The notes under the pieces: generated by a model
Databases searched by the model: none
What the model saw: only the letters and a program-made list of their open reading frames with translations
Told to the model about the DNA's origin: nothing
Part shown: positions 8,341-33,962 of the stretch, one piece after another
Numbering within the stretch: position 1 is the stretch's first letter
Layout of the letters: every line of letters begins with the position of its first letter
Assembly (NCBI RefSeq): GCF_000377985.1
Contig: NZ_KB899057.1
Span: 1 to 46,429 of the forward strand
From: Sporolactobacillus vineae DSM 21990 = SL153
GTDB lineage: Bacteria; Bacillota; Bacilli; Bacillales; Sporolactobacillaceae
Direction: 5' to 3'
Length of the DNA stretch: 46,429 nt
Made by a program: the position numbers and the translations under genes

Positions 8341-9039
8341 TCAGACCGGGATGTCCTGCTTCAGTGTATAGATTTTTTCTCCCGCGCCATATACGGATTC
8401 CCAGTCTGAGGTGAAATCATCAACTGCTTTCTTGATTGCCGGCATACCCAGGGCATTGGCAAGAATGTCTGCGCTCATTGTTGCTGCCTGGGATCCGGCT
8501 TCAAAAGCACTGTTTACCTGGCCCACATTTTTGAAACTTGCCGCAAGAATCTTTGTGTGGCTGTGCTGACGCTCAATGGCTCTGGCAAATTCCGAAATGA
8601 CTGCTCTGGCATCGATATTCATATTTTCCATCCGGTTAAAATAGGGCGCAATATAGTCGGCGCCGGCTTCAATCGCCAGATAGCCCTGGAATTTTGTATA
8701 AATTGCCGTGGCCGTGACATGGACCTGCTCACGTTTCAGCTGCTTTATCGCTGCCAGGCCGGCTTCCGTAACCGGAACTTTGATGAACACATTTCGGTCA
8801 ATATGGTCCAGAATGGCATGTGCATCTTTAAGGATGCCTTCTGTATCGCCAGCAACGACCTGAACATGGAGAGAAGCTTCCGGCCCGATTAATGAACGAA
8901 CGGCATTCAAATGTTGAAAAAGGTCGACTTTCCCTTCCTTTTTAATAATTGATGGATTCGAGGTCACGCCTGCCAGCGGAATGATATCCACATACTTTTT
9001 GATTGACGCCAGATGAACCGTATCCAAAAGAAATTCCAT
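8341..9039 (-). CDS. fsa: Fructose-6-phosphate aldolase / transaldolase-like (FSA, TalC family)
   Basis: A 232-residue small class I aldolase of the FsaA/FsaB/TalC type, about 10 residues longer than the E. coli enzymes. The Schiff-base lysine is Lys87 in [12 protein letters not shown]; the N-terminal [19 protein letters not shown] (24-31), [21 protein letters not shown] and ILAASFKN blocks are all present. FSA enzymes cleave fructose-6-phosphate or, more relevantly, 1-deoxyfructose-6-phosphate to glyceraldehyde-3-phosphate plus hydroxyacetone. It is transcribed on minus, 197 bp from the SorC-type regulator stop, with its own upstream region carrying operator-like boxes. With the PTS, glycyl radical enzyme and activase next door it fits the final step of an anhydrohexitol pathway. 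An AAGGGGTG site precedes the ATG. Transaldolase function is less likely for this short form. Confidence 0.88.
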
Positions 9040-9064
9040 GACTTACACCCCTTTTTTAAGTCCA

Positions 9065-9121
9065 TGCACATATGTGATTTTTCTTAATCTCCTTTGCTAA
9101 CAAGTAAATGATAGCACATAT
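9065..9121 (-). promoter_or_regulatory. Operator-like boxes upstream of the aldolase gene
   Basis: Two boxes lie 26-82 bp upstream of the ATG. GCACATATGTGA (9066-9077) holds the 10-bp palindrome CACATATGTG. GATAGCACATAT (9110-9121) matches 10 of 12 bases of an arm of the perfect palindrome before the glycyl radical enzyme gene (TATAGCACATAA, 13325-13336). In the aldolase gene's own direction it reads ATATGTGCTATC, the same orientation as the copy before the PTS genes. Either the DeoR or the SorC regulator of the locus could bind. Confidence 0.5.
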
Positions 9122-9236
9122 CTGTCTGAATCAAGGTTGCCGTCTTCTTCCTTTATGGTCTCCGGTTCTAAGAAGCGTTGATAGAGCGGCATTTATGAAT
9201 ATAAAAGCGGATACAAATTGCACATTAGTGCAGCTC

Positions 9237-10184
9237 CTATTCAAGTATCTTCCGAGCTGTTTCATCATCTGTGATCAGTGTGTTCATCATGCCCGTTTTC
9301 ATAAAAGCACGAATGGACGGTGCTTTCGCCGCTGAACGCGCGACACCAATTGAGTGCGGTACGTTTTTCAACAGCTCCGGATCGATGCCGATGGTCCGGT
9401 TATACAAGCCTTCCTTGATCAGGCGCCCGTCTGAATCAAAGAAGCGGCAGCAGCAGTCGCCGATCGCATGATGATGGCTCAGGCTGTGCTGATCTGCTTG
9501 GGTCAGAAAATCACGCCAGATGCTGGTGTGACTTTCAATGCCCAGCGGTCCGCCGATGCCGAACACGGCGATATCCAGGTGATTCCACAGCTCATAGAAT
9601 TTCTGAAAACCCTGAGATTTCGTGATACCGTCACGTAATAATTTCGAATCCTGAATGGCTCCGGCATTAATGAAGATGCATTCGCCGCCAAAATACTTGG
9701 ACAGGTCATAAATAATCGCATTCACATGAAAGCGTGCGTTGACGTGGCTCGGCCCGCCGACCAGCGGAACAAAGGTCGCACCTGTCTGCTTATTCCCTTT
9801 AAGCTTACCGATCAGACCGGCCAGCGTCTCCCCCCAGCTGAACCCCACAGTTTGTTGCCCGTTGATTAAATGCTTCAGATAATAAGCTGCTTCCTCTGCC
9901 AGTTTGTCTGCTTTTTCCGTTTCTGTGTCTTCGGAACGCGTCGGTACCACAACGACATCACGCATTTTGAAACGTTTCTGCAATCGGCTTTCCAATTCAA
10001 AAATATCCGGATTAAAATCGTGAATCTGAATATCGACAATGCCTTCGGAACGTGCCTTCTTCAACATTCTGCTGATGGTCGTCCGGTAGATGTTCAGTTC
10101 ATTGGAAATTTCAGTCTGGGTCGCCCCTTTGATGTAATAGAGATAAGCGACCTTAGTCAGAAGCTTCTTCTTATCTTCCTCCAT
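9237..10184 (-). CDS. SorC-family (DeoR-like effector domain) sugar-phosphate-responsive regulator
   Basis: A 315-residue transcription factor: an N-terminal helix-turn-helix (AYLYYIKGATQTEISNELNIYRTTISRMLKKARSEGIV, ~10-47, in two motif halves) followed by the SorC/CggR sugar-phosphate sensing domain (VGFSWGETLAGLI ~110, FVPLVGGP ~133, AVFGIGGP ~205, TIGIDPELLKNVPHSIGVARSAAKAPSIRA near the end). ATG at 10184 follows GGAGGG; the frame is open seven codons further up without a site. It sits between the aldolase gene (same strand, downstream) and the divergent PTS operon, so it most likely controls one or both in response to a phosphorylated sugar. A 9-bp inverted repeat in the PTS promoter (10277-10311) is its best candidate operator. 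A second SorC protein at 39.0 kb is clearly related. Confidence 0.88.
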   Translation of the reverse strand: MEEDKKKLLTKVAYLYYIKGATQTEISNELNIYRTTISRMLKKARSEGIVDIQIHDFNPDIFELESRLQKRFKMRDVVVVPTRSEDTETEKADKLAEEAAYYLKHLINGQQTVGFSWGETLAGLIGKLKGNKQTGATFVPLVGGPSHVNARFHVNAIIYDLSKYFGGECIFINAGAIQDSKLLRDGITKSQGFQKFYELWNHLDIAVFGIGGPLGIESHTSIWRDFLTQADQHSLSHHHAIGDCCCRFFDSDGRLIKEGLYNRTIGIDPELLKNVPHSIGVARSAAKAPSIRAFMKTGMMNTLITDDETARKILE

Positions 10185-10276
10185 AATTTTCCCTCCGAGT
10201 TGCACGATTGTGTCATATATAATCTGCTTATGTTCATTAAAACGCCTTTGTTAAGCCATTTTTGATGAATTAGCTT

Positions 10277-10326
10277 GTTTAAATGTGCTACAAATGTCTT
10301 TCCATTTAAACATAAGCCTTTATACT
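10277..10326 (+). promoter_or_regulatory. PTS operon promoter with inverted repeat and shared ATGTGCTA box
   Basis: GTTTAAATG (10277-10285) and CATTTAAAC (10303-10311) form a perfect 9-bp inverted repeat with a 17-nt spacer; the right arm overlaps a weak -35 (TTTCCA, 10299-10304) placed 16 nt before a good -10 (TATACT, 10321-10326). Between the arms, ATGTGCTA (10283-10290) repeats the 8-bp core found before the aldolase and glycyl radical enzyme genes. The layout suggests two regulators (SorC and DeoR) acting at this promoter. Confidence 0.55.
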
Positions 10327-10363
10327 GAAGATGTCGAGAAGAAAGAATCATGGTGAAATTAAC

Positions 10364-10377
10364 TGTAAACGTTTTCA
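10364..10377 (+). promoter_or_regulatory. cre site (CcpA) upstream of the PTS operon
   Basis: TGTAAACGTTTTCA matches the cre consensus TGWAARCGYTWNCW at every position. It lies about 40 bp downstream of the predicted start of transcription and 43 bp before the IIA start codon, the place for roadblock-type catabolite repression. So the operon should be shut off by glucose. Confidence 0.75.
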
Positions 10378-10419
10378 TTTTAACCACTTTCATTAATTTA
10401 AAAATAGGGAGGTTCTCCA

Positions 10420-10890
10420 ATGAACGTCATTAGCGAAAAGTTAATTAACCTGGATATTGTTGCCCACTCGAAACAGGAAGCTGTTAATAAGCTTGGCAGT
10501 CTGCTGAGAGATAGTGGAAGATTAAATGATTTTGACGCTTACATTAACAATGTCATAGAACGGGAGAAACTGGCAACAACGGGTATCGGCTTTGGCATCG
10601 CTATTCCCCATGGAAAAACAGATGCCGTCAATGTAGTATCTGTTGCAATTGGCAGATTAGTTGAACCTCTTGAATGGAACTCGTTGGATGGAGAAAAAGT
10701 TCAAATGATCTTTCTTCTCGCTGTTCCTGAAAAGAGTAAAGGCGATGAGCACTTGCGCATTCTTTCCGAGCTCTCGCGAAAATTGATTCATAAAGATTTT
10801 CGTGAACGGCTTTTCCAGGCTGAAAACAGTTCTGAGGTAATCAGCCTTATTGGTGAAACTCTTAACAAAACTTTGGAGGCGGTAATATGA
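10420..10890 (+). CDS. PTS fructose/mannitol-class enzyme IIA
   Basis: A 156-residue soluble phosphotransfer protein. The phospho-accepting histidine is His64 in GIGFGIAIPHGKTDAV, the signature of the PTS_EIIA_2 (fructose/mannitol) domain; FLLAVPEKSKGDEHLRILSEL follows near residue 105. It takes phosphate from HPr and passes it to IIB. Start ATG 10420 follows AGGGAGG. It is first in a tight IIA-IIB-IIC operon: its TGA overlaps the IIB ATG (ATGA, 10887-10890). No HPr or enzyme I domain is fused, unlike E. coli PtsA of the equivalent locus. Confidence 0.92.
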   Translation: MNVISEKLINLDIVAHSKQEAVNKLGSLLRDSGRLNDFDAYINNVIEREKLATTGIGFGIAIPHGKTDAVNVVSVAIGRLVEPLEWNSLDGEKVQMIFLLAVPEKSKGDEHLRILSELSRKLIHKDFRERLFQAENSSEVISLIGETLNKTLEAVI

Positions 10891-11210
10891 AAGTCATCGG
10901 CGTTACAGCTTGCCCATCCGGGGTAGCACACACTTATATGGCAGCTGAAAGTCTTCAGGAAGCATGTAAGGAAAACGGCGTATCAGTGCATATCGAAACC
11001 CAAGGATCAATTGGCATCGAAAATGAGTTAAAACCAATTGAAATTAGAGAAGCAGATGTAGTGATCCTGACAAACGACATTGGTATAAAAAATGAAAACC
11101 GTTTCAAAGGAAAACCAGTTCTTCGAATCAGTACCAGCGAGTGTATCCAAAAAGGTTCAATCATAATCAAAAAGTTAGCAGCTAAGTTTTCAACAATAAA
11201 TGCGAATTGA
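10887..11210 (+). CDS. PTS fructose-class enzyme IIB
   Basis: A 107-residue protein with the fructose-class IIB signature VTACPSGVAHTYMAAESL, in which Cys9 is the phosphorylation site. It transfers phosphate from IIA to the sugar bound by IIC. GGAGGCGG lies just upstream inside the IIA gene and the start overlaps the IIA stop by 4 nt, implying translational coupling. Its length equals one free-standing IIB domain, as in FrwB/FrwD-type systems rather than the fused FruA. Confidence 0.92.
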   Translation: MKVIGVTACPSGVAHTYMAAESLQEACKENGVSVHIETQGSIGIENELKPIEIREADVVILTNDIGIKNENRFKGKPVLRISTSECIQKGSIIIKKLAAKFSTINAN

Positions 11211-11221
11211 GGCGATAATCG

Positions 11222-12328
11222 ATGAACGACTTTAAAAAATTAATGGCCGGAATGCGAAAGCATTTGATGACAGGTGTTTCGTATATGATCCCATTCGTTG
11301 TTGCAGGAGGCGTCTTGCTTGCTCTAAGTGTTCTTCTTTCCGGCAAGTCGGCTGTTCCTTCTGCTGGTTCTCTCGGACAGCTCGCACTCATTGGCAAAGC
11401 AGGCCTTTCATTGATGGTTCCTATTCTCTCGGGATACATTGCATTTTCAATGGCTGATCGTCCAGGTATTGCTCCGGGTGTGATCGGTGGACTACTGGCA
11501 AGTCAAATAGGAGCAGGCTTCATAGGCGGACTGATTTCCGGTATTCTTTCAGGAATTGTCGTCTTTTATCTGAAAAAGATTCGTGTCCCGTCCGCATTAA
11601 AGTCGATCATGCCGATCTTGATTATCCCGTTATTTGGTACATTTATCATCGGCAGTATCATGGTTTATGTGATCGGCAGTCCAATATCTTCAGTAATGGC
11701 AGCAATGACACACTGGCTTCAGGGGCTGGGAACGGGCAATCTCGCCATCCTTGGTATTATCTTAGGTGCTATGATAGCTTTTGACATGGGTGGCCCGGTT
11801 AATAAGGTGGCATTCAGCTTCGGAGCCGCACTGGTTGGAACCATTAATCCAGCGACTGGACTTCCTAGTGCCACAGCGATGTCAATCATGGCCGGAATTG
11901 GTGTAGCAATCTGCATCCCTCCACTGGCAATGGGTACCGCGACACTGATTTCAAGGAATAAATTTACCGTAGAAGAACGTGAAGCAGGAAAACCGGCTCT
12001 CGTGATGGGACTTGTCGGGATTACAGAAGGAGCGATACCGTTTGCTGCTTCCGATCCATTGAGAGTGATTCCAAGCAATATGATTGGTTCTGCAATCGGA
12101 GCCAGTCTGGCCATGGTCTTTGGTGCTGGAAATCCTGCACCTTGGGGCGGTTGGATCGTTACCCTTGTCTCAAGCCATCCATTTTTCTACATCCTTGCTT
12201 CTTTAATTGGTGTTGCAGTAACCACAACAATGATTCTTTTACTGAAAAAAAAGGTCGTTAGTCGAACGGAAAAGTCAGAAATTAATCATGACGATGAGGA
12301 TTTTGATCTTGATCTGAAAATTATGTAA
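11222..12328 (+). CDS. PTS fructose-class enzyme IIC (permease)
   Basis: A 368-residue membrane protein with eight to ten hydrophobic segments, beginning with HLMTGVSYMIPFVVAGGVL, the conserved IIC opening. The family signature GITEGAIPFAASDPLRVIP (~258-276) and AFDMGGPVNKVAF (~180) are present. It imports and, with IIB, phosphorylates the substrate. The C-terminus is acidic (HDDEDFDLDLK). GAGGCGATA precedes the ATG, 11 nt after the IIB stop. The closest known context is the FrwC permease in E. coli, encoded beside pflD-pflC and fsaB, so a 1,5-anhydrohexitol is a likelier substrate than fructose. No fructose-1-phosphate kinase gene is nearby, which argues against a fructose system. Confidence 0.9.
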   Translation: MNDFKKLMAGMRKHLMTGVSYMIPFVVAGGVLLALSVLLSGKSAVPSAGSLGQLALIGKAGLSLMVPILSGYIAFSMADRPGIAPGVIGGLLASQIGAGFIGGLISGILSGIVVFYLKKIRVPSALKSIMPILIIPLFGTFIIGSIMVYVIGSPISSVMAAMTHWLQGLGTGNLAILGIILGAMIAFDMGGPVNKVAFSFGAALVGTINPATGLPSATAMSIMAGIGVAICIPPLAMGTATLISRNKFTVEEREAGKPALVMGLVGITEGAIPFAASDPLRVIPSNMIGSAIGASLAMVFGAGNPAPWGGWIVTLVSSHPFFYILASLIGVAVTTTMILLLKKKVVSRTEKSEINHDDEDFDLDLKIM

Positions 12329-12387
12329 TCCATGTAACCATATTAGAAACATCAGGAACTGACACCGCGGGATCTTCCTGAAAGCTG

Positions 12388-12438
12388 AAAAAGAGAGTGC
12401 TTCAAAGCCAAAAATGAAGCTTGAAGCAGTCTCTTTTT
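12388..12438. terminator. Bidirectional terminator between IIC and DeoR genes
   Basis: AAAAAGAGAGTGCTTCAA (12388-12405) pairs with TTGAAGCAGTCTCTTTTT (12421-12438), a long stem with A- and T-runs at the ends, between two convergent genes. Confidence 0.85.
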
Positions 12439-12463
12439 ATCGTTCATCAACAGGCAGTATGTT

Positions 12464-13249
12464 TTATTCTGCTATGATGACTTGTGTCATACTCCTGAGT
12501 TCGCGGAGTGCATCCTCAGGAGCTTCTCTATCCGTGATCACATAGTCGATGGCCTCCCAGTCAGCCACTTTAACAAATGAGCTCCGGGAAAATTTTGAGT
12601 GATCAATCAGAACCACTTTCAGCCGGCATTGATCGAGCATCGTCCGCTTCATTTCCGCATCCGCAAGACTTGAGGAGCACATCCCGTTACGGTCCAGGAT
12701 CCCGCTTGACCCGAAAAAGCCGATATCCAGCTGTATATTGTGCATCAGCCCTCCTGCCGCTTCCCCCTGGAACGACATATCGGCCGGCTGATATTTGCCG
12801 CCGATACAGTAGAATTCGTTCGTCCCATGGATCAATTCAAGGATGGATGTTAATGAACGGGTTATCACAACTTTGTTTCGATACTGATTCAGTTCATGCG
12901 CCAGCAATGCGACAGTGCTGCCCTGATCGAGTCCGATGATGCAGCGGTCTTCAGGAATGAAAGCAAGCGCCCGCTTGACAATTTTCTGCTTGTCTTTGAG
13001 AAAAGTCGTGGTCCGCTGCATGACCGGTTCGATAAAATCAGACCGGTCGCTTACCGCACCGCCATAGACCGTGCGCAAGATGCCCTGCCCTTCAAGGTAC
13101 TTTAAGTCCTTGCGTATCGTTTCATCTGAAACATGAAAGAGATCCGTCAGCCGATTCACTTTGACTTTACTTTGTTCCGCAAGCATGCGGGCAATCTGAT
13201 CGCGCCGCTGCTGGATTTCTGCTGCTTTCACTGTCTGCCGATACTCCAT
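12464..13249 (-). CDS. DeoR-family transcriptional repressor
   Basis: A 261-residue regulator. The N-terminal DeoR helix-turn-helix (RRDQIARMLAEQSKVKVNRL, VSDETIRKDLKYLEGQGI, TVYGGAV; ~14-67) is complete. The C-terminal sugar-phosphate sensor has CIIGLDQGSTVALLAHEL (~103-120), VVITRSLTSI, YCIGGKY, DIGFFGSSGILDRNGMCSSS and VVLIDHSKFSRSS (~218-230). It is divergent from the glycyl radical enzyme gene, and a perfect palindrome between them overlaps that gene's promoter, so repression of the GRE-activase operon is the simple prediction; release would come from a phosphorylated intermediate. The ATG at 13249 has no strong ribosome site, so the start is less certain. Convergent with the PTS operon across a shared terminator. 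Confidence 0.9.
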   Translation of the reverse strand: MEYRQTVKAAEIQQRRDQIARMLAEQSKVKVNRLTDLFHVSDETIRKDLKYLEGQGILRTVYGGAVSDRSDFIEPVMQRTTTFLKDKQKIVKRALAFIPEDRCIIGLDQGSTVALLAHELNQYRNKVVITRSLTSILELIHGTNEFYCIGGKYQPADMSFQGEAAGGLMHNIQLDIGFFGSSGILDRNGMCSSSLADAEMKRTMLDQCRLKVVLIDHSKFSRSSFVKVADWEAIDYVITDREAPEDALRELRSMTQVIIAE

Positions 13250-13299
13250 TCTGATTCATGTTCTGATCCAGGTAAAATCAACGAAATCAATGAAATAGT

Positions 13300-13336
13300 T
13301 TGCACTTATGTGCTATATCGTTATTATAGCACATAA
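13300..13336 (+). promoter_or_regulatory. GRE operon promoter covered by a perfect 12-bp palindromic operator
   Basis: TTATGTGCTATA (13306-13317) is mirrored exactly by TATAGCACATAA (13325-13336) across a 7-nt spacer. A promoter can be drawn through it: -35 TTGCAC (13300-13305), 16-nt spacer, -10 TATTAT (13322-13327). A second possible promoter (TTGATT 13352-13357, TATACT 13374-13379, 16-nt spacer) lies just downstream. The operator sits between the DeoR gene and the GRE gene and is the natural DeoR binding site. Confidence 0.75.
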
Positions 13337-13411
13337 ATTCCAAGTTTTTCATTGATTGTTCCCGGCAAACCCTTATACTTAGGATAGAAACAGTAAAGGA
13401 GTGTTTCACTA

Positions 13412-15763
13412 ATGGTAGGAATGAAAACGATTACAGAACATAAGCCGTCCTTTTTGACCGTACGAAAAACCAGCCGGATTGATGAAATGAAAGCCAATCT
13501 GTTTAAGCAAAAGCGACGTATTTCTCTGGAACGTGCCCTACTGTTCACAGCCAGCGACAAAGAAACGGAAGGCCAGCCGCAGATCATTCGCCGGGCGAAA
13601 GCAACCGCATATATTCTTGACCATGTTGCGATCAGTATCCGCCCAGGTGAATTGCTCGCAGGAAACAGGACGATCGCGCCGAGAAGCGGCATCCTGTCTC
13701 CGGAAATGGATCCTTACTGGATTATGGAGGAAATCGACACCATCCACAATCGCCCACAGGATGCTTTTGAATTCACTGAAGAAGATAAGAAGATTTACCG
13801 CGATCAGCTGCTCCCCTATTGGTCCGGACGTTCGATGAAAGATTTTATCAATGGAAAAATCACTTCCGATGCCAAAAAAGCCGTAGACGACCGGGTGATC
13901 AAACTCAATCAGACCGACAAGGGGCAGGGCCATATTATCATGGACTTCGCATCAATTCTGAACCATGGGATTAGCTTCTATCAAAAGCAGCTAGAGGCTA
14001 AACGGCAGCAATATCCGGACAATCTTTTTTACCAGGCCGGACAGCTGATCTACGCCGCTATGTCCCGCCATTTTCTCCGTTACGCTGAAAAGGCACATGA
14101 CCTGGCGCTGCAGCCGGGTGTGACCGAGTCCAGAAAAATCGAATTGAACGAGATGGCGGCGATGTGCCGGCGGCTCAGCACCCAGGCACCGCAAACCTTT
14201 TATGAAGCGCTGCAGCTTCTGTGGATGACCAGCATTGTCGGGCAGTATGAATCCAATGCTTCCTCGCTCTCACTGGGACGCATGGATCAATATCTGTACC
14301 CATTTTATGACGCATCCGTTCAAGCAGGCGTTCCCTCATCTTTTCTGCGGGAAGTGCTCGGCGATTTCTACATCAAGACCAATGATGTCGTGCTCTTGCG
14401 CAGCCGTGAAAGTGCCAAATGTTTCGCTGGATTCCCGACCGGCTATACGGTTGCCTTGGGCGGTCTGGACAAATACGGGCAGCCGTCTGTCAACGAGTTG
14501 TCCTATGAGATGCTGGACCTTTACCAGCAGATCCGGCTGCCGCAGCCCAATCTGTCTGTACGCATCAACGAACTGATCCCGAGAAGCTTTCTCGTCAAAA
14601 CCTGCGAGACAATCCGGCTCGGCACCGGCATTCCGCAGATTTTCAATGATGAAGTCATCATCCCCGGTTTCCTGAGCAAGGGCGTTTCCCTGGATGATGC
14701 ACGCGACTATGCAGTGGTCGGCTGCGTGGAAACAACCATTCCCGGCCGGACATACGGCCTTCACGACATTGCCCTGTTCAACTTGCTTCGCGTCATGGAG
14801 ATCTGCTTGTATGAACTGCGCGACCGCAAGCACCTGACCTATGGCCAGCTGACGCACTATCTGTTTGGCCGAATTGATGATTATGTTAAGGCGGTCACGG
14901 CGGGTTCCGACATCGTCGACCTCGCCCACAAGGAATTTGCTCCGATCCCGTTCCTGTCCACCTTGATTCAAGATTGCATTGAAAACGGTCAGGACGTCAC
15001 ATCCGGAGGAGCCCGTTACAACTTTTCAGGAGTACAGGGTATCGGTGAAGCGAACTTAAGCGATTCACTCTATGTGATTAAAAAAATTGTTTTTGAAAAT
15101 CACGAAATGACACTCGGTGAACTTGTAGATGCACTGGAAGCCGATTTTGAAGGCAAGTATGCGCCTCTGCGTGCGCATTTCATTTCTGATTTTGGTAAAT
15201 ACGGCAACGACAATCCGGAAATTGATCAGATCGCCGCGAAAATTTTCCGGCATTTCGCCTGCGAACTGGATAAATACCGGAATATCCGCGGCGGCGTCTT
15301 CAACGCCGGGGCCTATACCGTTTCCGCCCATATTCCGCTTGGTGAAGATGTCGGTGCCACCCCGGACGGCCGAAAAGCACAGGAACAGCTTGCCGACGGC
15401 GGACTGTCGCCAATGGTCGGCCGCGATAAGCTCGGCCCGACCGCCGTTCTGAAATCCGTCAGCAAAATCGACAACATGCTCGCCGTCAACGGCAGTCTGC
15501 TCAACCTCAAGTTTCAGCCGTCCGCTTTGAACGGAACAGCCGGCATCAATAAGTTTGCCGATTTCCTGATGGCATTCACAAAGCTGAAAATCCGTCATGT
15601 CCAGTTCAACGTGCAGTCGCGTGAAACGCTCCTTGACGCGCAGAAGCATCCGGAAAAATATACCGGATTAATTGTCCGTGTCGCTGGCTACTCCGCGTTT
15701 TTCATCGATCTGAATAAGAAGATACAGGACGATATCATTGCCCGCTGCGAACATGTTCTGTAA
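13412..15763 (+). CDS. pflD: Glycyl radical enzyme, PflD/YbiW type (predicted 1,5-anhydrohexitol-6-phosphate lyase)
   Basis: A 783-residue glycyl radical enzyme. The radical-bearing glycine is Gly759 in VRVAGYSAFF near the C-terminus and the catalytic thiol is Cys438 in AVVGCVETTIPG, with Glu440 two residues later. GQGH (171-174), YESNASSLSLGRMDQY (~279-294) and the YNFSGVQGIGEANLSDSL block are typical of the dehydratase/C-O lyase side of the family, not of pyruvate formate-lyase, which has adjacent cysteines. Along its length it recalls E. coli PflD (from memory). PflD and YbiW are reported to open the ring of 1,5-anhydromannitol- and 1,5-anhydroglucitol-6-phosphate to 1-deoxyfructose-6-phosphate. 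An AAAGGAG site precedes ATG 13412; the activase follows 14 bp later. Oxygen-sensitive cytoplasmic enzyme. Alternatives: another diol or glycerol dehydratase-like activity. Confidence 0.85.
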   Translation: MVGMKTITEHKPSFLTVRKTSRIDEMKANLFKQKRRISLERALLFTASDKETEGQPQIIRRAKATAYILDHVAISIRPGELLAGNRTIAPRSGILSPEMDPYWIMEEIDTIHNRPQDAFEFTEEDKKIYRDQLLPYWSGRSMKDFINGKITSDAKKAVDDRVIKLNQTDKGQGHIIMDFASILNHGISFYQKQLEAKRQQYPDNLFYQAGQLIYAAMSRHFLRYAEKAHDLALQPGVTESRKIELNEMAAMCRRLSTQAPQTFYEALQLLWMTSIVGQYESNASSLSLGRMDQYLYPFYDASVQAGVPSSFLREVLGDFYIKTNDVVLLRSRESAKCFAGFPTGYTVALGGLDKYGQPSVNELSYEMLDLYQQIRLPQPNLSVRINELIPRSFLVKTCETIRLGTGIPQIFNDEVIIPGFLSKGVSLDDARDYAVVGCVETTIPGRTYGLHDIALFNLLRVMEICLYELRDRKHLTYGQLTHYLFGRIDDYVKAVTAGSDIVDLAHKEFAPIPFLSTLIQDCIENGQDVTSGGARYNFSGVQGIGEANLSDSLYVIKKIVFENHEMTLGELVDALEADFEGKYAPLRAHFISDFGKYGNDNPEIDQIAAKIFRHFACELDKYRNIRGGVFNAGAYTVSAHIPLGEDVGATPDGRKAQEQLADGGLSPMVGRDKLGPTAVLKSVSKIDNMLAVNGSLLNLKFQPSALNGTAGINKFADFLMAFTKLKIRHVQFNVQSRETLLDAQKHPEKYTGLIVRVAGYSAFFIDLNKKIQDDIIARCEHVL

Positions 15764-15777
15764 AGAAGGTCTGCTTT

Positions 15778-16560
15778 ATGACAAAAGGTCTGGTTTTCAC
15801 TATCCAGCGCTACTCCATTCACGATGGAACCGGCATCCGTACGATGGTCTTTCTCATGGGCTGCCCGCTTCACTGTCCGTGGTGTTCCAACCCAGAATCT
15901 CAGGGGACGGTCCAGCCGAAAGTATGGATGAAAAATAAGAAACCGGAGACCCTCGGCCGCTGGATGTCGGTCGAAGAAGTCATCCGCGAAGTGGAGAAAG
16001 ATGAAATTTTTTACCGTACATCCGGCGGCGGTCTGACGCTGTCCGGCGGCGAAGTGCTGATGCAGGCCGATTTCGCTTCCGAACTGCTCCGGGCTGCTAA
16101 AGAACTGGGGATCAGTACGGCCATCGAAACAGCCGGATCACTGCCCCTGCATCAGTTTGAAAAAGTGCTTCCGTATGCTGACCAAATCCTGTTCGATCTG
16201 AAGATTATGGATTCTGCACGTGCATTAGCGATTATCGGCGACAAAATGTCCCTGATCAAAACGAATTTTGAAGCCGCATTGCGCACGAAAACCGTGCAAC
16301 TCATTCCAAGAGTCCCGCTGATTCCCGGATACACAGTCCGGCAGGAAAATCTGGAACAGATCCGCGATTATCTGAAGGAACAGGGGATTCATGAACTTCA
16401 TATTTTGCCCTTCCATCAGTTCGGCAGCCAGAAATACGAGGATCTGGATCAGGCGTATGCGCTCAAGAATACACCGTTACTGAAAAAAGAGGACGTGGAA
16501 CAGATCAGGGAATTTTTTGAACACAGTGCGCTGAACGTCGTCGTCAGCGGTCTCGCCTGA
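15778..16560 (+). CDS. pflC: Glycyl radical enzyme activating enzyme (radical SAM), without auxiliary cluster
   Basis: A 260-residue radical SAM protein that generates the glycyl radical on the enzyme encoded 14 bp upstream. FTIQRYSIHDGTGIRTMVF (8-26) and the CX3CX2C cluster motif GCPLHCPWCSNPE (Cys29, Cys33, Cys36) are at the N-terminus, then SGGGLTLSGGEVLMQ (~82-96), IETAG, LFDLKIMD and LLPFHQ-like LPFHQFGSQKY near the C-terminus. Those three cysteines are the only ones in the protein. Most activases of this branch, E. coli PflC included as I recall, have an extra cysteine-rich insert right after CxNPE; here a short basic linker replaces it, so only one [4Fe-4S] cluster is possible, as in PflA. 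GAAGG precedes the ATG. Confidence 0.92.
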   Translation: MTKGLVFTIQRYSIHDGTGIRTMVFLMGCPLHCPWCSNPESQGTVQPKVWMKNKKPETLGRWMSVEEVIREVEKDEIFYRTSGGGLTLSGGEVLMQADFASELLRAAKELGISTAIETAGSLPLHQFEKVLPYADQILFDLKIMDSARALAIIGDKMSLIKTNFEAALRTKTVQLIPRVPLIPGYTVRQENLEQIRDYLKEQGIHELHILPFHQFGSQKYEDLDQAYALKNTPLLKKEDVEQIREFFEHSALNVVVSGLA

Positions 16561-16636: not shown

Positions 16637-17482
16637 TCAGATCTTGTTCGATGCGATCAGCAATTCATGCTTCTGAATGTGCTTCTTCAGCTGCGGATCG
16701 TCCGCAATCAGCAGCATGAACAGCGCTTCAACAGCGGTCACCGCAGACACGCGGGAAAAGAAGTATTCCGACATAAAAATGGTGCCGCGGCTCGCCGTCA
16801 CGATGTTATAATCCGCCAGTGCAGCCATTGGCGAATGGTCACTGTTCGTCAGCGTAATGACGGTCGCCTGATTTTTCCTGGCTGTATTGATCAGCTGGAT
16901 CAGCCGGCGGGATTCACCGGAGTTGGAAATGACCATGACCACGTCGGAATCCGTCAGATTCAGCGTCTGTCCCATCGCTACTTCCCAGGAAGAAGCCGTA
17001 AAGGCCAGCCGTCCGATCTGGTTGAACTTAAAGCAGGCATCAAGCGCCACCGGGAACGTATTGCCCTCCGCCATCACCTGAATCAACCGGGACCCTTTTA
17101 TAACACGAATGATCTGTTTCGTAGTCTCCGGGTCAAACCCCTCCAGCGTCGCCTCGATCTCATCCTTTTTATCGCCCATCAGTTTCTCCAGGGTTTTATC
17201 TTCGCTGTGCAGAGATTGATTATTCTGAGTCTCGTCATTGACGACCGAAACCTGGGCCAGCATGACTTTTAAATGATGAAACCCGTTCAGGCCGATCCGT
17301 TTACAGAAACGGGACACCGACGCCTCACTGATTTTGGCCCGCCCGGCAAGCTGTGAAATCGTCGCATTGATCACAAACTGCGGATCGTTGATGACCAGAT
17401 CGACGATGCTCTTTTCCGATTTGGAAAACTTGCCCAGGTGTGAATAGATACGATTGACAAATGCCTTATAATTTGACTCCAT
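16637..17482 (-). CDS. RpiR/MurR-family transcriptional regulator with SIS domain
   Basis: A 281-residue regulator: RpiR-type helix-turn-helix (FSKSEKSIVDLVINDP, ISQLAGRAKISEASVSRFCKR, ~18-65) followed by a SIS phosphosugar-binding domain (VMVISNSGESRRLIQLINTARKN and ATVITLTNS, ~180-215). ATG at 17482 follows AGGAAG, and its first 17 bp overlap the end of the oxidoreductase gene, so the two are translationally coupled and the regulator is the second gene. Two TGAA(A)CTAATTT(T/C)AAT boxes at the operon promoter (18592-18637) are likely its operators, giving autoregulation. The effector should be a phosphosugar related to the oxidoreductase pathway. Confidence 0.88.
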   Translation of the reverse strand: MESNYKAFVNRIYSHLGKFSKSEKSIVDLVINDPQFVINATISQLAGRAKISEASVSRFCKRIGLNGFHHLKVMLAQVSVVNDETQNNQSLHSEDKTLEKLMGDKKDEIEATLEGFDPETTKQIIRVIKGSRLIQVMAEGNTFPVALDACFKFNQIGRLAFTASSWEVAMGQTLNLTDSDVVMVISNSGESRRLIQLINTARKNQATVITLTNSDHSPMAALADYNIVTASRGTIFMSEYFFSRVSAVTAVEALFMLLIADDPQLKKHIQKHELLIASNKI

Positions 17483-18488
17483 ATTTTTCTTCCTGTTCAC
17501 TCTTTATCTGATCAAAGGGATACTTCATGCCCCATTGATTCCGTACATTGGTCAGGATATTCATCACGTCGAACGACAGAGCAAATTCGCCGTCGTCATG
17601 GCCCTGCTCGATATAGCGCTGCATATCCCTGACTTCATACTGCAGGGCAAGCGATTCATCACCGGCAGTGATCACATCATGGGTTTCCGTGTGCGCATCT
17701 TCGGTGTAAGTAATCGACGCCCTGGTTGCCCGCGGATAATTGCTGATTTCAATATATCCTCCGGTTCCGGAAATCACACCGCGTTTCGGCTGTTTTGCCC
17801 GCATTGACAGCGCCATCACCGCCAGCTGATCATCGAGATTTTTCAGAATGATCCCCGACTGTTCATCCACGCCGGTTTCAAAATAGTCGACCGTCGTCAG
17901 TACGCTGACCGGCTGCGACTTTAAGAAGGAACGGGCAAAAGCAGTGGCATAACCGCCGATGTCCAGCAGCGCGCCGCCGGCCAGATCCTTATTGAAGAAA
18001 CGGTTCCGGACGTCGTAATCTTTCAGGCTGCCGAAGTTCACCTGAACCAGTTTGATCTGGCCAAGTTTTCCAGACTGGATCAGCCCTTTGATCTTTTTGT
18101 ACAGCGGCATGTGCAGCAGTGTCAGGCCCTCAGTGACAATCAGCCCTTTTTCTTCCGCCAGTTTCCGGACATTGTTCAGCTGCTGCGCATTCACCGTGAT
18201 CGCTTTTTCGGCGAACACGTGCTTGCCCGCCTCCAATGCCTTCATAATATAACCATAGTGGAAATTGTGCGGCGTGGCAATATAAATCACGTCAACATTC
18301 GGATCGTTGATCATTTCATCCGGATTCAGATATGAATGCTGAATGTGCTTTTCGCTGCTGAATGTGCGCAGCGCCTTTTCATTCACATCCGCCACCGCAT
18401 AAATTTCTCCGTTAACACTGTTCAATGCATCTGCCATTTCATGTGCGATCCATCCAGTACCAATCATACCCCAGTTATACTTTGTCAT
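17466..18488 (-). CDS. Gfo/Idh/MocA-family NAD(P)-dependent oxidoreductase
   Basis: A 340-residue dehydrogenase with an N-terminal Rossmann fold (WGMIGTGWIAHEMADAL, 6-22), the family dipeptide EK in GKHVFAEKAITVN (~89-101), and a C-terminal GFO/IDH domain (GGALLDIGGYATAFARSFL, ~173-191). Substrates in the family are sugars, inositols, anhydrofructose and dihydrodiols. I chose ATG 18488 since AGGAGG lies 9 nt upstream; the first ATG (18497) abuts the Shine-Dalgarno. It heads a two-gene operon with an RpiR regulator. One family member, 1,5-anhydrofructose reductase, makes 1,5-anhydromannitol, the proposed substrate of the glycyl radical locus next door; that link is speculative, as the operon has its own regulator. 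Confidence 0.85.
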   Translation of the reverse strand: MTKYNWGMIGTGWIAHEMADALNSVNGEIYAVADVNEKALRTFSSEKHIQHSYLNPDEMINDPNVDVIYIATPHNFHYGYIMKALEAGKHVFAEKAITVNAQQLNNVRKLAEEKGLIVTEGLTLLHMPLYKKIKGLIQSGKLGQIKLVQVNFGSLKDYDVRNRFFNKDLAGGALLDIGGYATAFARSFLKSQPVSVLTTVDYFETGVDEQSGIILKNLDDQLAVMALSMRAKQPKRGVISGTGGYIEISNYPRATRASITYTEDAHTETHDVITAGDESLALQYEVRDMQRYIEQGHDDGEFALSFDVMNILTNVRNQWGMKYPFDQIKSEQEEKYGVKL

Positions 18489-18591
18489 CTTATTCATCCT
18501 CCTGATGTTTGATTTTTTACTCACCGGCAAAAAGGTTTGCGATGCAGAATCCATAAGAAGTGCTTCCATCCCCCTTTTTCCCTTTTAAAAA

Positions 18592-23892: not shown

Positions 23893-26196
23893 TCATGAAT
23901 CGTTCATCCCGTGCGACGCATTCGTTTTCACGGAATGCCGGCGCTCCAGCAGGACAGCCTTACCTAACACCTGAAGATGAATCGGCACTCCAGACAGCAG
24001 GAGCAGTTCAACCCGTTCCTGATTCACGGAAACCTGAATCCGCCGCCCGCGATAATTGACCTTGAACGTATAGGATGACCAGCCGTCGGGAAGATATGGG
24101 GCAAAGGCCAGTGTCTCATGAAACGTTCGCATCCCGCCGAATCCCTGGACGATCGCCAGCCAGCTTCCGGTCATCGACGTAATGTGGAGACCGTCGGACG
24201 TATCCTGATTATAATTATCCAGATCAAGCCGTGCCGTCCGTTTGTAAAGCTCGAGCGCTTTTGTTTTCTTTCCCAGTTCAGAAGCCAGGATCGAATGAAC
24301 GCAGGGCGAGAGACTCGACTCATGCACCGTCATCGGCTCATAGAACGCAAAGTTCCGCTTTTTTTCTTCCATTGTAAACTGATCGCCGAAAAAATAAATG
24401 CCTTGAAGAACGTCGGCCTGTTTGATAAAACAGGAACGCAGGATCCGGTCCCACGACCAGTGCTGATTCAGCGGCCGTTCCTCCTCAGGAATGTCATCAG
24501 CCGGTTTTAATTCTTTGTCCAGAAACGTATCATGCTGAACAAAGATTTTAAGTGTGTCGTCATACGGCTCATACATATTGCCGGCGATCTCCCGCCAGTG
24601 ATCCAGCTCCCCTTGCGTGAGACCGAGCGCCGCATATTTTTCTTCACTGACCAGGGGCATCACGCTGAGGGTATAGTTCAGTGTCCACGCGGCGATCCGG
24701 TTGGTATACCAGTTATTGTTCACATTATTTTCGTATTCGTTCGGACCGGTAACCCCGTGTATCATATACTGCTGTTTTCTTTCCGAGAAATGCACGCGGT
24801 CGGCCCAGAAGCGGCAGATACCGGTCAGGACATCGATGCCGTACTGATTAATATACGATTTGTCACCGGTATAATTCACATAGTTATAGATGGCATAGGC
24901 GATCGCGCCATTGCGATGGATCTCTTCAAAGGTGATTTCCCACTCATTATGGCATTCCACTCCGTTGAAGGTCACCATCGGATAGAGGGCCCCCTTAAGG
25001 CCCTGCATCCGGGCGTTATGACAGGCTTCCGGCAACTGATGATAGCGGTAGAGCAGCAGCTGGCGGGTCACGTTCGGATCGGCGACACCCAGATAAAATG
25101 GAACCGCATAAGCTTCTGTATCCCAGTAGGTCGCACCGCCATATTTCTCGCCCGTAAACCCTTTGGGACCGATGTTCAGCCTTGCGTCTTCCCCATAATA
25201 AGTGGAGAACAGCTGAAACAGATTGAAGCGGATCCCCTGCTGCGCCTCATCATCGCCTGTAATTGTTATATCCGCCTTTGCCCAGCGTCTTTTCCAGGCT
25301 GCACGGTGCTCATTTTTCAATTCATCATAACCACTGGCAATGGCCTGCCCGAGTAATTCCTTCGATTTTCCGGCAAGCTGCGCTGCCTCATAATCCCTGC
25401 TTGTGGTTAATGCAACGAATTTATCCACGGATACTGTCTTACCGGGTTCAATGCGGGATTCGAGAACTTTGGCCACATACAGCTTACTGTCTTCGGCTGA
25501 AACGGAAACGGCTCCATCCGTCTGCAGTCCCATCGCGGCGGTTGCATCGAAGACCGGCGTGCCAAAAGAGTTGTCGATCGTCCGGACAGCCAGCCCGGAT
25601 TCCTGATTTTCAGAATAACGTCCGGTTTCCAGCCAGAACATCTCGTCATAATTTGCATCTTCATTATGCACGGAACCGTTCAGATAGGGCACCAGCCGGA
25701 CAGACGCCACACCCGACTGTCCGGTGACCCGGAAACGGACGGCACAGATTTCCCGGTTAACGATACTCAGAAACCGTTCCGCCTCAACGCGGACCGTCAC
25801 GCCTCGCTTTGTCACATCATAGGAATGGCGCAGCACCCCCTCCTTCATGTTCAGTTCAAGTTCATAATTTTCTAACGTATCCTGATACAAATCGACCTCT
25901 TCACCCTGAAGAAACAATTTGACGCCAATAATATTCATCGCATTGATGACTTTGCCAAAATAGTCCGGATAACCGTTTTTCCACCAGCCGACCCTTGTCT
26001 TATCCGGAAACCAGACACCAGCCAGATACGTTCCCTGATGATGATCCCCGGAATACGTTTCTTCAAAATTGCCGCGCATCCCCATGTATCCATTTCCAAG
26101 AGAAGTCAGACTTTCCTGAAGGCGCATCTGATCCCGATGCAATTGATTGGTCCGCAGCACCCAGGGATCGACCGCAAACAAACGGGTATGTGACAT
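23893..26196 (-). CDS. malP: Maltose phosphorylase (glycoside hydrolase family 65)
   Basis: A 767-residue GH65 phosphorylase. The general acid is Glu487 in [12 protein letters not shown], the same number that I recall for the Lactobacillus brevis maltose phosphorylase. [17 protein letters not shown] (353-369) and [25 protein letters not shown] in two blocks (408-432) are the barrel motifs with the phosphate and sugar contacts. It splits maltose with phosphate to beta-glucose-1-phosphate and glucose in the cytoplasm. Position at the end of an mdx-order operon (B. subtilis yvdK/mdxK place) supports maltose over trehalose or kojibiose. GGGAGATGAG precedes the ATG and overlaps the upstream DUF1189 stop. 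The beta-phosphoglucomutase and malL genes that follow in B. subtilis are absent here. Confidence 0.92.
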
Positions 26197-26202
26197 TTCA
26201 TC

Positions 26203-27114
26203 TCATCTCCCACTGCCGACAATAAACAGTTTTTTTTCATGTAATTTTCGGGTGTCCTGAAAATGCGTTTGCCGGAAGACAAAGGCAATCATCAGCACAA
26301 CCCCGGAAGATTGAACCATCGTCAGCGTTCCGATATCGAAGTGGACCAGACCAAGCATCATCGCAGCTATTGATGGCACACCGGCCGATATCAGCACGAC
26401 CGCCGCCGCCTCTCGAAGCGAGTGAATGTCTGAGATTCGCGTGCGTTTTGTCAGCCAAAGAAAGACCGCAGCTGCACCCAGCATCAGAAGATTAAAAATC
26501 ATCACACCCATAAATCCGAGAAAGGAAACAACACCCAGAAAATCGCTTTTGTACTGACTGACCCACAATTGCGACATTTCTTTTAACAGATTCTCTTTTG
26601 ATCCATCAAATGTGATCTGCCCGTTTCCGGGATACATGATCTGAAAGCCAAATCCATTTTGATCACTGAGCATCAGACGATCCTTCTGAAAAATCAATGC
26701 GTTCTGATAACCCCTCACAAACTGGTGATATTTATTCCCCTCTATATGCCATTTGCCATTCAGATCAATCGCTGCAATATTTCTTGCTGACAGCCGTTCA
26801 TAGGGTGGCGCAGCCAGACGCCCATTGACAATCGAGTAACCGGCGATTTGATTCAGGAAATTCTGATCCGCCACCTGACTCACATGCGGGGCCACGAGAG
26901 ATATCGGCACACGCTTTACTTTGACCAGTTGAAGCGAAACAGGAATCATCAGACAGCCGGAGAGAAACACAAAGAGAAAAAGGATCTGCCACCACTTAAA
27001 AACGTTTCTTTTCTCAAAAATCTTCTTCGGACGCCACATGTAAATGAAATAATTTAATGGAAATCGATCTCCTGCTGAATGCACAAGCCTCACATCCTGT
27101 CTTCGGTTACCCAT
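26203..27114 (-). CDS. DUF1189 membrane protein of the maltodextrin operon (YvdJ-like)
   Basis: About 280-303 residues. One N-terminal transmembrane helix (WWQILFLFVFLSGCLMIPVSL) is followed by a ~130-residue extracytoplasmic domain (VSQVADQNFLNQIAGYSI, IDLNGKWHIEGN) and a group of three to four C-terminal helices (VVSFLGFMGVMIFNLLMLG, VVLISAGVPSIAAMML). This is the DUF1189 architecture, and B. subtilis has such a gene, yvdJ, at the same place between the MalG permease and the phosphorylase. Function unknown; a role in maltodextrin uptake or permease maintenance is inferred from conserved synteny. The start is uncertain: ATG 27114 lacks a clear ribosome site; ATG 27039 (MWRPKKIF) gives a more usual N-terminus. 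Confidence 0.75.
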   Translation of the reverse strand: MGNRRQDVRLVHSAGDRFPLNYFIYMWRPKKIFEKRNVFKWWQILFLFVFLSGCLMIPVSLQLVKVKRVPISLVAPHVSQVADQNFLNQIAGYSIVNGRLAAPPYERLSARNIAAIDLNGKWHIEGNKYHQFVRGYQNALIFQKDRLMLSDQNGFGFQIMYPGNGQITFDGSKENLLKEMSQLWVSQYKSDFLGVVSFLGFMGVMIFNLLMLGAAAVFLWLTKRTRISDIHSLREAAAVVLISAGVPSIAAMMLGLVHFDIGTLTMVQSSGVVLMIAFVFRQTHFQDTRKLHEKKLFIVGSGR

Positions 27115-27150
27115 GCTGATTCAGTTGAGAAAAGCGGATTCATCTTTTCA

Positions 27151-28002
27151 TTAGCCTTTTGTTCCCCCGGCGGTCAGTCCGCTCTGGAAAAAGCGCTGCA
27201 GGAAGAAGAATAAAATGACAATCGGCACGGACACAAGAAACGACCCGGCAGCAAACAGCGACACATTCTGGCTCGTCGGATTCGAAATAAATTGTTGCAG
27301 GCCCACCGCAACGGTCAGATGTTCCGGTGTACGCATTAAGAACGCTGCCATGAGGAAATCCCCGAAAGGGCCCATGAAAGCCCACAAGGCCTGAACCGCG
27401 ATCATTGGCATGGCAAGAGGCAAGTTAATCTGGCAAAGAATACGCAGATGCCCTGCACCATCAATTCTTGCCGATTCGTCCAGGTCACGTGGAATCGTAT
27501 CAAAGTAACCTTTCATCAGCCACGTATTCATCGGAATGCCGCCACCGACATAGACCATGACCAGATACCAGTACTGATCAAGTCCGTTGATTAACAGTCC
27601 GAGAACGAAGAATGCGATCAGTGCAGCCATCGTCGGTACCATTTGAATAATCAGGAAGAAAACCAGGCCGTACTTTCGTCCTCTAAACCGATAGCGACTG
27701 TATGTGTACCCCGCCAGCGTAACGATCACCACCTGGATGATCATCGTCCAGACGGCAATCGTCATCGTGTTTTTAAACCAGGTCAGATACAGCGTCTCTG
27801 AGAACAACTGTTTAAAATTATCCAGCGTCCACTGAATCTGCGGATCGAGAGTGAATGCAGCGAGACTTGATGCGTTAAACGCGGACTCCGCAGTGATCAG
27901 TAAGGGATAAATAATCAGGATACTTAGAATAATCAGGAACAAGTAAGTGAAAAAACGGCTGAAGAATTTACCTGACCGGCGACTTCTGTAACGTCTCTTC
28001 AT
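27151..28002 (-). CDS. mdxG: Maltodextrin ABC transporter permease, MalG type
   Basis: A 283-residue permease with six hydrophobic segments. The EAA loop that docks the ATPase is present as [18 protein letters not shown] followed by NLPLAMPM (~178-205). A basic N-terminus ([12 protein letters not shown]) precedes helix one. It forms the channel with the MalF-type partner encoded 1 bp upstream. No ATPase gene is in the operon; Bacillus uses the shared MsmX ATPase, so the same is likely here. Confidence 0.92.
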
Positions 28003-28003
28003 C

Positions 28004-29308
28004 TCACATCATCTCCTCATTGCTAAATGAGTGCGTCTTTTTGAAGGCAATAAGGGAAGCACCGATCACAATGATTGAGATGACCATCGTTACAGCTGAA
28101 GCCAGTGCATACTGCGGCGATGTTCCGGTCGTCAGTTTGTAAATCCAGGAGATCAGGATATCGGTTGACCCGGCACCTCCGCCGATGTCGCCTGGTCCTC
28201 CTGAATTAAACAAATAGATAATGGAAAAGTTGTTGAAATTAAACGTGTACTGGGTGATGAAAACAGGTGCCGTCGCGAACATAATCATCGGCAACGTGAT
28301 TTGATTAAACTTCTGTATAAAATTAGCGCCGTCGATTTCCGCTGCTTCATAAAGGTCGTCAGGTATCGACTGCAAGACGCCTGTAACCATCACAAAAATA
28401 TAGGGGAATCCGAGCCAGGTCTGAATCATGATTAATGCCGTTTTCGTCCAGAAAGGATCGGTTTTCCACGGTATGCCCTGAAAGTGAAGATAGGGAATAT
28501 AGTTGATCAATCCCAGAACCTGCTGGTTTATGGCACCAATACTGTCATTAAAGATATTGGAGAAGCTCATGATTGTGACAAATGCCGGTACCGCCCATGG
28601 GAGAAGAAAGATCGTTCTGAAAATGCGCCTGCCGACGATGAACTTCTGATTGGCCACAACGGCCGTAATGATGCCCAGAGCAATCTGGCACGTTGTCGCA
28701 AGGATCGTCCAGATAATTGTCCAGCCCAATACAGAGAAAAAGGTAGCCCGATACGAGCTGAGAAAAATCATGTTAAAGAAATTCTGAAATCCGACCCAGT
28801 CAATCAATTTTACCGGAGGAATGTGGTAAAAATCATAGTTGGTAAAGGCCATGAACAAGGTGACAAGTACAGGAAAGACAATAACGAAAATCATAAAAGT
28901 ATAAGCCGGAATGGTTAATAAATAGGGAAAGCCCTTCTCCCAGGCATTTCGCAGCATTGAAACCGGGCTTAAATTCACTGATTTTCCTGTATTCCAGAGT
29001 CCGGCAACCCTTCTGGCATCACTGACGCTGAATAGCAGAATCACAAGAAAGATGAATGTAATAATGATCTGCAGTGTTCCCTGAACCATTAAGAAAAGGG
29101 AATGGTCCCGGATCGGAACCGTTCCCAATGTGACAAAGCCCAGAAAAGCAGGTAACCCGATGGTCACAAACTCGGCAACAAAAGCAACGGTGACGAGGAG
29201 AAACAGAATACCCTTGATCATCTGGCCATTATAAATCTGTCCCAGTCCGGGTATGATGGACAACAAACCCGCTTTTCGCACGCTTTTCCTGTTTTTTTGA
29301 TTTTTCAT
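28004..29308 (-). CDS. mdxF: Maltodextrin ABC transporter permease, MalF type
   Basis: A 434-residue permease with about eight hydrophobic segments. The first ([16 protein letters not shown], with its amphipathic start) is the extra N-terminal pair typical of Gram-positive MalF proteins. The EAA loop reads [18 protein letters not shown] followed by ITLPMIM (~322-347). Longer than MalG, as expected. Its stop is adjacent to the mdxG start, consistent with one polycistronic message from mdxE onward. Confidence 0.92.
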
Positions 29309-29343
29309 CGTGCTTCCCTCGTTTCAAACAACGACGTTCGTCA

Positions 29344-30612: not shown

Positions 30613-30643
30613 TTTCTTGCCCCCTTTTTATCCTTACACGTGC

Positions 30644-32507: not shown

Positions 32508-32605
32508 GGATTGGATACCCCTTTCAAAGTGATGCCGCCATGAGGGCATCTTCAACGCTTAACCCCCACCAGTAATTATAAGGGAGAAACAATTACAAGC
32601 GCAGA

Positions 32606-32619: not shown

Positions 32620-32638
32620 GATTACACGGGGTACGTTG

Positions 32639-33598: not shown

Positions 33599-33629
33599 CG
33601 TAACACCTTCTTCTCTGACTTCCCACCTG

Positions 33630-33937: not shown

Positions 33938-33962
33938 CAATTCCTACCTATTTTAATGCCTC

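Follow-up and report, generated by a model that had tools for sequence, protein, structure and literature searches.

What does a spore-forming lactic acid producer do with a glycyl radical enzyme (GRE) whose gene lies among genes for a phosphotransferase system (PTS) and an aldolase? We addressed this question for positions 8341-16560 of a 46,429-nucleotide stretch from Sporolactobacillus vineae DSM 21990 = SL153 (hereafter the window), which corresponds to contig C16 in a genome of 2.86 Mb. The original prediction had read these genes as a locus for the anaerobic fermentation of a 1,5-anhydrohexitol. Our analysis makes it very probable that the locus serves the anaerobic fermentation of 1,5-anhydromannitol by way of a PTS, a PflD-type radical enzyme, its activase, an FSA aldolase and a GldA enzyme encoded elsewhere. 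The list of open reading frames and the profile searches placed all eight genes where they had first been read. Each gene is open, and the family matches (Pfam and NCBIfam profiles) lie far above chance. From left to right, the genes are:

8341..9039, minus strand: FSA/TalC-type aldolase, proposed to convert 1-deoxyfructose-6-phosphate to glyceraldehyde-3-phosphate and hydroxyacetone (NF009299, 366.7 bits, cut-off 214)
9237..10205, minus strand: SorC-family regulator, divergent from the PTS genes (Pfam Sugar-bind, E 1.3e-65)
10420..10890, plus strand: PTS EIIA, fructose class (TIGR00848, 131.6 bits, cut-off 103.5)
10887..11210, plus strand: PTS EIIB, Frw type (NF007783, 144.6 bits, cut-off 135; 54% identity to E. 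coli FrwB)
11222..12328, plus strand: PTS EIIC, Frw type (NF007787, 432.3 bits, cut-off 426; 53% identity to E. coli FrwC)
12464..13249, minus strand: DeoR-family regulator, divergent from the GRE gene (Pfam DeoRC, E 1.4e-39; HTH_DeoR, E 2e-17)
13412..15763, plus strand: PflD-type GRE with Cys438, Glu440 and Gly759, proposed substrate 1,5-anhydromannitol-6-phosphate (profiles, PDB matches, alignment and tree)
15778..16560, plus strand: GRE activase of the radical S-adenosylmethionine (SAM) type, without the ferredoxin-like insert (TIGR02494, 259.7 bits, cut-off 174.35)

The PTS, GRE, activase and FSA aldolase genes that make up the pathway's gene set are thus co-located in the window. Because the SorC gene diverges from the PTS genes and the DeoR gene from the GRE gene, the locus comprises at least four transcription units. 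As had been claimed, E. coli K-12 has the same set, in a cluster of gldA, fsaB, ptsA, frwC, frwB, pflD, pflC and frwD. The likeness extends to PflD (58% identity), FrwB and FrwC (54% and 53%, as listed), PflC (43%), FSA and GldA. The E. coli cluster differs in having PtsA where the window has a lone EIIA, GldA inside the cluster, YijO in place of the SorC and DeoR regulators, and an activase with a four-cysteine insert.

Identity of the glycyl radical enzyme

The GRE matches Pfam PFL-like (E 8.4e-184) and Gly_radical (E 4.8e-31) and passes the equivalog profile of E. coli PflD, NF007437 (PRK09983), scoring 1171.7 bits (cut-off 1109). It falls below the cut-offs for the CutC equivalog TIGR04394 (487.6 vs 1050), HypD (481.9 vs 1100), the pyruvate formate-lyase (PFL) equivalog TIGR01255 (142.6 vs 994.2 bits), both sulfopropanediol dehydratases, indoleacetate decarboxylase and hydroxyphenylacetate decarboxylase. 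The catalytic residues named in the original prediction, Gly759 and Cys438, are where it had placed them: Gly759 in the motif RVAGYSAFF, and Cys438, together with Glu440, in GCVE, with both motifs invariant in 21 aligned PflD sequences.

A sequence search of the PDB returned 8id0 (1244.8 bits), 8yjo (E. coli PflD; 1013.8), 1r8w (glycerol dehydratase; 600.9), 9rco (550.8) and 5i2a (525). The closest solved relative, also by Foldseek match, is 8id0 (69% identity), which by its title is Streptococcus dysgalactiae PflD bound to 1,5-anhydromannitol-6-phosphate; 8id7, by title E. coli YbiW with 1,5-anhydroglucitol-6-phosphate, is 33% identical. Identity to E. coli K-12 YbiW is 36%, compared with the 58% given above for PflD.

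These scores bear on whether the protein could instead be a glycerol or 1,2-propanediol dehydratase, or the PFL suggested by its database name. The B12-independent glycerol dehydratase (1r8w) shares its superfamily and has a Cys-X-Glu motif that aligns with that of the GRE, and NF007437 itself retains the name formate C-acetyltransferase. However, 1r8w scores only roughly half as many bits as the PflD match and differs in its neighbours, since the window GRE gene has PTS and FSA aldolase genes nearby; a true PFL, encoded on contig C4 of the same genome, scores 1145.5 bits with TIGR01255, a profile that the window GRE misses by a wide margin. We therefore consider these identities extremely improbable. 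The separation that the original prediction presupposed holds for CutC in the profile scores and for glycerol dehydratase in the PDB matches.

In a 75-row LG+G4 tree, the GRE was placed not with another characterised branch but inside a 40-row PflD clade (SH-aLRT 100), separate from the YbiW clade, in line with the original prediction. Its sister is the STSJ-5 enzyme (support 99), followed by seven Lactobacillaceae rows (100). This was a quick tree without bootstrap, in which enteric PflD rows were thinned to 10 of 49, no row was named as CutC or glycerol dehydratase, and rows outside the PflD clade drew long-branch warnings. Comparison of 79 PflD rows (window included) with 15 YbiW rows yielded 38 separating positions, at which the window GRE has the PflD state in 37 cases and the YbiW state in none; the remaining residue, K507, matches neither. 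From the GRE comparison we excluded L055, whose gene is split over two frames, as well as rows that contained a stop or fell short of 650 amino acids; L060 was excluded from the alignments for a stop inside the matched stretch.

A PFL-like family search found no YbiW in the window's genome. Its other matches were the true PFL on contig C4 and a lone 127-amino-acid frame on contig C7 (L118, 5183-5566). This frame matches a short piece of the PFL-like domain (domain positions 105-193), is 33% identical to YbiW over 89 amino acids, and may be what is left of a further GRE.

Substrate, pathway and gene neighbourhood

A radical pathway for 1,5-anhydrohexitols was described by Ma et al. 2024, as reported in passages of a review (PMC12441222), according to which the YbiW and PflD routes share a reaction type and a product. 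The original prediction had left the substrate as a 1,5-anhydrohexitol. That much stands, and we narrowed the choice to 1,5-anhydromannitol-6-phosphate, in preference to the 1,5-anhydroglucitol compound, because the best match, 8id0, carries the former as its ligand and our searches of the genome turned up no YbiW. The most likely substrate is thus 1,5-anhydromannitol.

We weighed the alternative sugar in related loci. A scan for PflD found 444 encoding stretches, of which the best 80 loci were kept; our Gram-positive comparison set consists of 27 Lactobacillales and Sporolactobacillus loci (L031-L057), in which all counts are lower bounds, as some contigs end early. A YbiW homologue adjoins PflD in 5 of these 27, so both substrates can matter there; the product of the two reactions is identical, and the original prediction had left the choice open. 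The window GRE, however, lies in the PflD and not the YbiW clade and has the YbiW state at none of the separating positions, and some genomes retain both PflD and YbiW, suggesting that neither replaces the other. The E. coli YbiW/YbiY/FsaA system, which acts on 1,5-anhydroglucitol-6-phosphate (8id7), resembles the window's in reaction type and product, according to the same passages of PMC12441222, and differs in a YbiW that is 36% identical, belongs to a separate clade and has no counterpart found in the window's genome. It is very unlikely that 1,5-anhydroglucitol-6-phosphate, on which YbiW acts, is the main substrate of the GRE, or that the enzyme takes both anhydrohexitol phosphates.

Where both are present, the second, YbiW-type GRE system lies near the PflD system with its own DeoR-type regulator and an insert-free activase, which puts both anhydrohexitol routes in one island:

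L031, 13235-17526: YbiW-type system near PflD
L032, 2788-7083: YbiW-type system near PflD
L046, 13661-17964: YbiW-type system near PflD
L055, 13249-17540: YbiW-type system near PflD
L056, 15282-19724: YbiW-type system near PflD

For 1,5-anhydromannitol fermentation in S. vineae, we propose the following route. The Frw-like PTS, together with the general PTS enzyme I that the genome encodes (TIGR01417, 787.1 bits vs 341.7), would import 1,5-anhydromannitol and phosphorylate it to 1,5-anhydromannitol-6-phosphate. The activase, with its SAM-bound [4Fe-4S] cluster, would set a radical on Gly759 of PflD; passed on to Cys438, this radical would start a dehydratase-like reaction that opens the C1-O bond and yields 1-deoxyfructose-6-phosphate. 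The FSA aldolase would then release glyceraldehyde-3-phosphate into glycolysis along with hydroxyacetone, which a GldA-like dehydrogenase encoded elsewhere would reduce to 1,2-propanediol as an electron sink. Cleavage by FSA and the GldA step are taken as parts of the pathway, with support here from the gene neighbourhood.

The FSA of the window is 37.6% identical to E. coli FsaA and 36.7% to FsaB, with which AASFK and another stretch align. The hydroxyacetone reductase had been called the missing step, to be sought elsewhere in the genome. It is indeed absent from the locus, but the step is not missing: the genome search gave a GldA-subfamily dehydrogenase on contig C6 that is 50% identical to E. 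coli GldA, in a match spanning residues 4-362 of 367 (360 of 367 in a second comparison), and scores 525.5 bits with NF006941 (cut-off 336).

Several observations weigh against this assignment. The FSA shares only 37% identity with FsaA and FsaB and falls below TIGR00875 (163.6 vs 245.95) and NF009296 (199.2 vs 306), and the GldA of contig C6 falls below the E. coli-type equivalog NF047954 (447.9 vs 700) and is unlinked to the locus. The 38 separating positions are clade markers and not proven contacts. The predicted GRE structure is mediocre (mean pLDDT 66.7) and of low confidence near Cys438 and Gly759, so the Foldseek match adds PDB titles more than structural proof and we make no docking or contact argument. 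Finally, no PTS lies beside pflD in the two other pflD-bearing Sporolactobacillus genomes, in which the best EIIC is a 50% match within a 665-amino-acid frame (G011) or a 54% match on another contig (G005).

On the other side, the PflD profile, the clade, the separating positions and the neighbouring genes all support the anaerobic anhydrohexitol fermentation first proposed. We conclude that this is a complete, well-supported 1,5-anhydromannitol fermentation locus: gene content, orthology, active-site residues, GldA and enzyme I, together with the cre match and the shared motif described below, are observed, and the substrate, reactions and regulation are predicted. As the structure of a Gram-positive PflD carrying 1,5-anhydromannitol-6-phosphate has already been solved, the locus adds an example to an already described pathway and does not represent a new type of system. 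In a literature search for the pathway in Sporolactobacillus, which did not cover the 2024 source paper, the only paper among the matches listed that paired the genus with 'pfld' meant Plasmodium lactate dehydrogenase.

The arrangement of the locus varies among relatives. Across the 27 Gram-positive loci we counted an activase in 27, DeoR upstream of pflD in 23, a PTS in 19, FSA in 18, SorC in 16 and GldA in 2. Besides the S. dysgalactiae enzyme, three loci of other Streptococcus species hold SorC, PTS IIA-IIB-IIC, pflD, activase and FSA together, with an insert-free activase as in the window; they lack the DeoR gene that stands beside pflD in the window, where the genes run in both directions. 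Judged by PflD, the closest named relatives are two Sporolactobacillus (80% and 79% identity), and pflD occurs in 3 of 15 genomes of the genus (the window's, G011 and G005). This patchy occurrence and the position of the window's PflD next to Lactobacillaceae suit horizontal spread of the gene. The pflD of G005, Sporolactobacillus shoreicorticis (L055 10001-12312; also L115), is split over two frames, 10001-12067 and 12061-12312, and is either broken or misassembled.

The locus is adjoined by genes for an RpiR-family regulator (16637-17500) and a Gfo/Idh/MocA oxidoreductase (17466-18569), on the minus strand. These could belong to a larger unit that makes 1,5-anhydromannitol from 1,5-anhydrofructose: 1,5-anhydrofructose reductases share the superfamily (4koa, 70.2 bits; 2glx, 64.6 bits), and Lactobacillus ultunensis (L056) has a 74% homologue with RpiR between its PflD and YbiW systems. 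The best solved relative of the oxidoreductase is nevertheless another protein (3evn, 98.5 bits), and the DNA examined of the other 26 Gram-positive loci holds no homologue. Within the genus, homologues of 81-86% identity occur in 8 of 14 other genomes, six without PflD and two with PflD on another contig, and their neighbours vary save for RpiR, which adjoins in 8 of the 9 loci read. As the oxidoreductase gene stands apart from pflD across the genus, we rejected the pair as part of the pathway and regard the larger unit as having very little chance of being real.

Farther along the window, ORF reading alone points to two other clusters: a maltodextrin cluster by its look at 23893-33940 (GH65-type phosphorylase, ABC sugar transporter, GH13-type hydrolase and LacI-type regulator) and an L-sorbose-type utilisation cluster by its look at 33963-39966 (mannose-class PTS, two dehydrogenases and SorC-type regulator).

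Candidate regulatory sites

The intergenic gaps of the locus contain the following candidate sites:

10276..10312, unstranded: perfect inverted repeat of 10 nt, TGTTTAAATG / CATTTAAACA, between the SorC and EIIA genes, a possible but weak SorC operator (repeat search of the window)
10364..10377, plus strand: perfect match to the catabolite-responsive element (cre) consensus of CcpA, 42 nt 5' of the EIIA start; the sole site in the window, matched on both strands, with 0.03 expected on average in shuffles
12388..12438, unstranded: 18-nt inverted repeat (94% complementary) with flanking A/T runs in the convergent EIIC/DeoR gap, a possible two-way terminator unlisted by the terminator scan
13306..13336, unstranded: perfect palindrome with 12-nt arms in the DeoR-GRE gap, the core of a 33-nt, 85% inverted repeat at 13285-13357 (repeat search)
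13340..13347, plus strand: CCAAGTTT motif, a candidate DeoR operator common to several genera, adjoining a promoter-like site (gap enrichment)
13352..13379, plus strand: sigma-A-like GRE promoter TTGATT-16-TATACT (consensus match 9/12; weak)

The original prediction had called two dedicated regulators for one pathway unusual. The pairing is instead common, as SorC occurs with DeoR in 13 of the 27 Gram-positive loci, and both proteins may sense pathway phosphates. The site at 10364-10377 matches the CcpA cre consensus, and through it CcpA would repress the PTS genes. Of the 27 other loci, two have an exact cre ahead of a pathway gene: the EIIC gene in L032, which it directly precedes, and the gene of the YbiW-type activase in L031. 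In a scan for exact matches the other 25 had none, and we rejected the cre as a conserved feature; we therefore predict CcpA control for the window alone.

In the DeoR-GRE gap, the candidate operator CCAAGTTT is enriched: 20 copies fall in 16 of 24 such gaps (the window and 23 loci), with none in the other 8, at a density of 4.33 per kb vs 0.086 per kb in whole loci, uncorrected for kinship among the loci. The palindrome in the same gap was discarded as a conserved operator, since no similar repeat was present among perfect inverted repeats (arms of at least 8 nt) in the 23 other gaps. The sigma-A-like site is weak because the region holds 24 promoter-like sites of this kind vs a mean of 14.2 in shuffles. 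The regulatory roles of the cre, the CCAAGTTT motif and the palindrome are predictions.

Activases without the ferredoxin-like insert

Between the CX3CX2C motif and GGE, the window activase has 53 amino acids and no cysteine, compared with 70 amino acids and four cysteines in E. coli PflC and 98 and six in YbiY; it also falls below the PflC equivalog NF007483 (277.4 vs 326). All 27 PflD activases of L031-L057 are insert-free (52-53 amino acids, 0-1 cysteines). Six further activases in these loci have 54 amino acids and 0-1 cysteines, five of them in loci with a ybiW homologue. In the remaining loci (L058-L110 and L116), the corresponding stretch has 70-74 amino acids and 4-6 cysteines in 53 of 53 scorable activases; the pieces from L067, L098 and L105 were unscorable.

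In a 70-row tree built with the insert excluded, the insert-free activases form two groups, and joining them was rejected (p-AU 0.00037); the first activase tree likewise required two changes. Enteric activases were thinned in both trees, the label for insert-free rows (noFd) was fixed after the first, E. coli YbiY is a long branch, and L189, insert-free in a partial sequence with two cysteines, stands outside the noFd label, so that its loss is uncounted. These trees suggest that the YbiW-type activases lost the insert separately from the PflD-type ones, and a single loss followed by regain is also compatible with them. L189 and L191, two YbiW-adjacent activases of the same genus, differ in this stretch, with about 54 amino acids and two cysteines in the partial L189 sequence vs 102 and ten in L191.

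On balance, we lean slightly towards the view that the PflD- and YbiW-type activases of Lactobacillales and Sporolactobacillus separately lost the ferredoxin-like domain with its auxiliary [4Fe-4S] cluster and work with a single SAM-binding cluster. Insert-free activases have a precedent in those of GRM5, according to PMC6325248, and a 2024 paper (PMC11528403) calls the auxiliary clusters of activases 'of unknown function'. A reference cited in that paper weighs against the single-cluster reading: by its title, hydroxyphenylacetate decarboxylase needs the domain for its radical to last.

We also surveyed activases in 25 genomes, namely the window's own and the genomes that carry 24 of the 27 loci, reading 30 loci among the matches listed. 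Ten of these activases, from 9 of the 25 genomes, have an insert of 95-112 amino acids with 5-10 cysteines; the other 20, including the window's and further activases of the two pathways, are insert-free (50-55 amino acids, 0-1 cysteines). Loss of ferredoxin-type activases as a whole-cell trait is unsupported in Enterococcus and Streptococcus, where other activases retain the insert. In the Enterococcus genome of L041 (G048), contigs C1, C2 and C19 carry several activase matches that begin no earlier than profile position 95, a pattern typical of insert-free activases, and none of them is on the pflD contig; one that was read, L246, has 54 amino acids and no cysteine.

Together, these analyses place a full predicted route for 1,5-anhydromannitol fermentation in a spore-forming lactic acid producer and make visible which of its parts are fixed and which vary. 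Vague database labels, formate C-acetyltransferase and fructose PTS, become a testable pathway, and the CCAAGTTT motif and the cre site yield direct regulatory predictions. The insert-free activases offer a comparative handle on auxiliary iron-sulfur clusters in glycyl radical activation and, if their separate losses are real, the PflD and YbiW pathways would be a natural pair of experiments on what these clusters are for.

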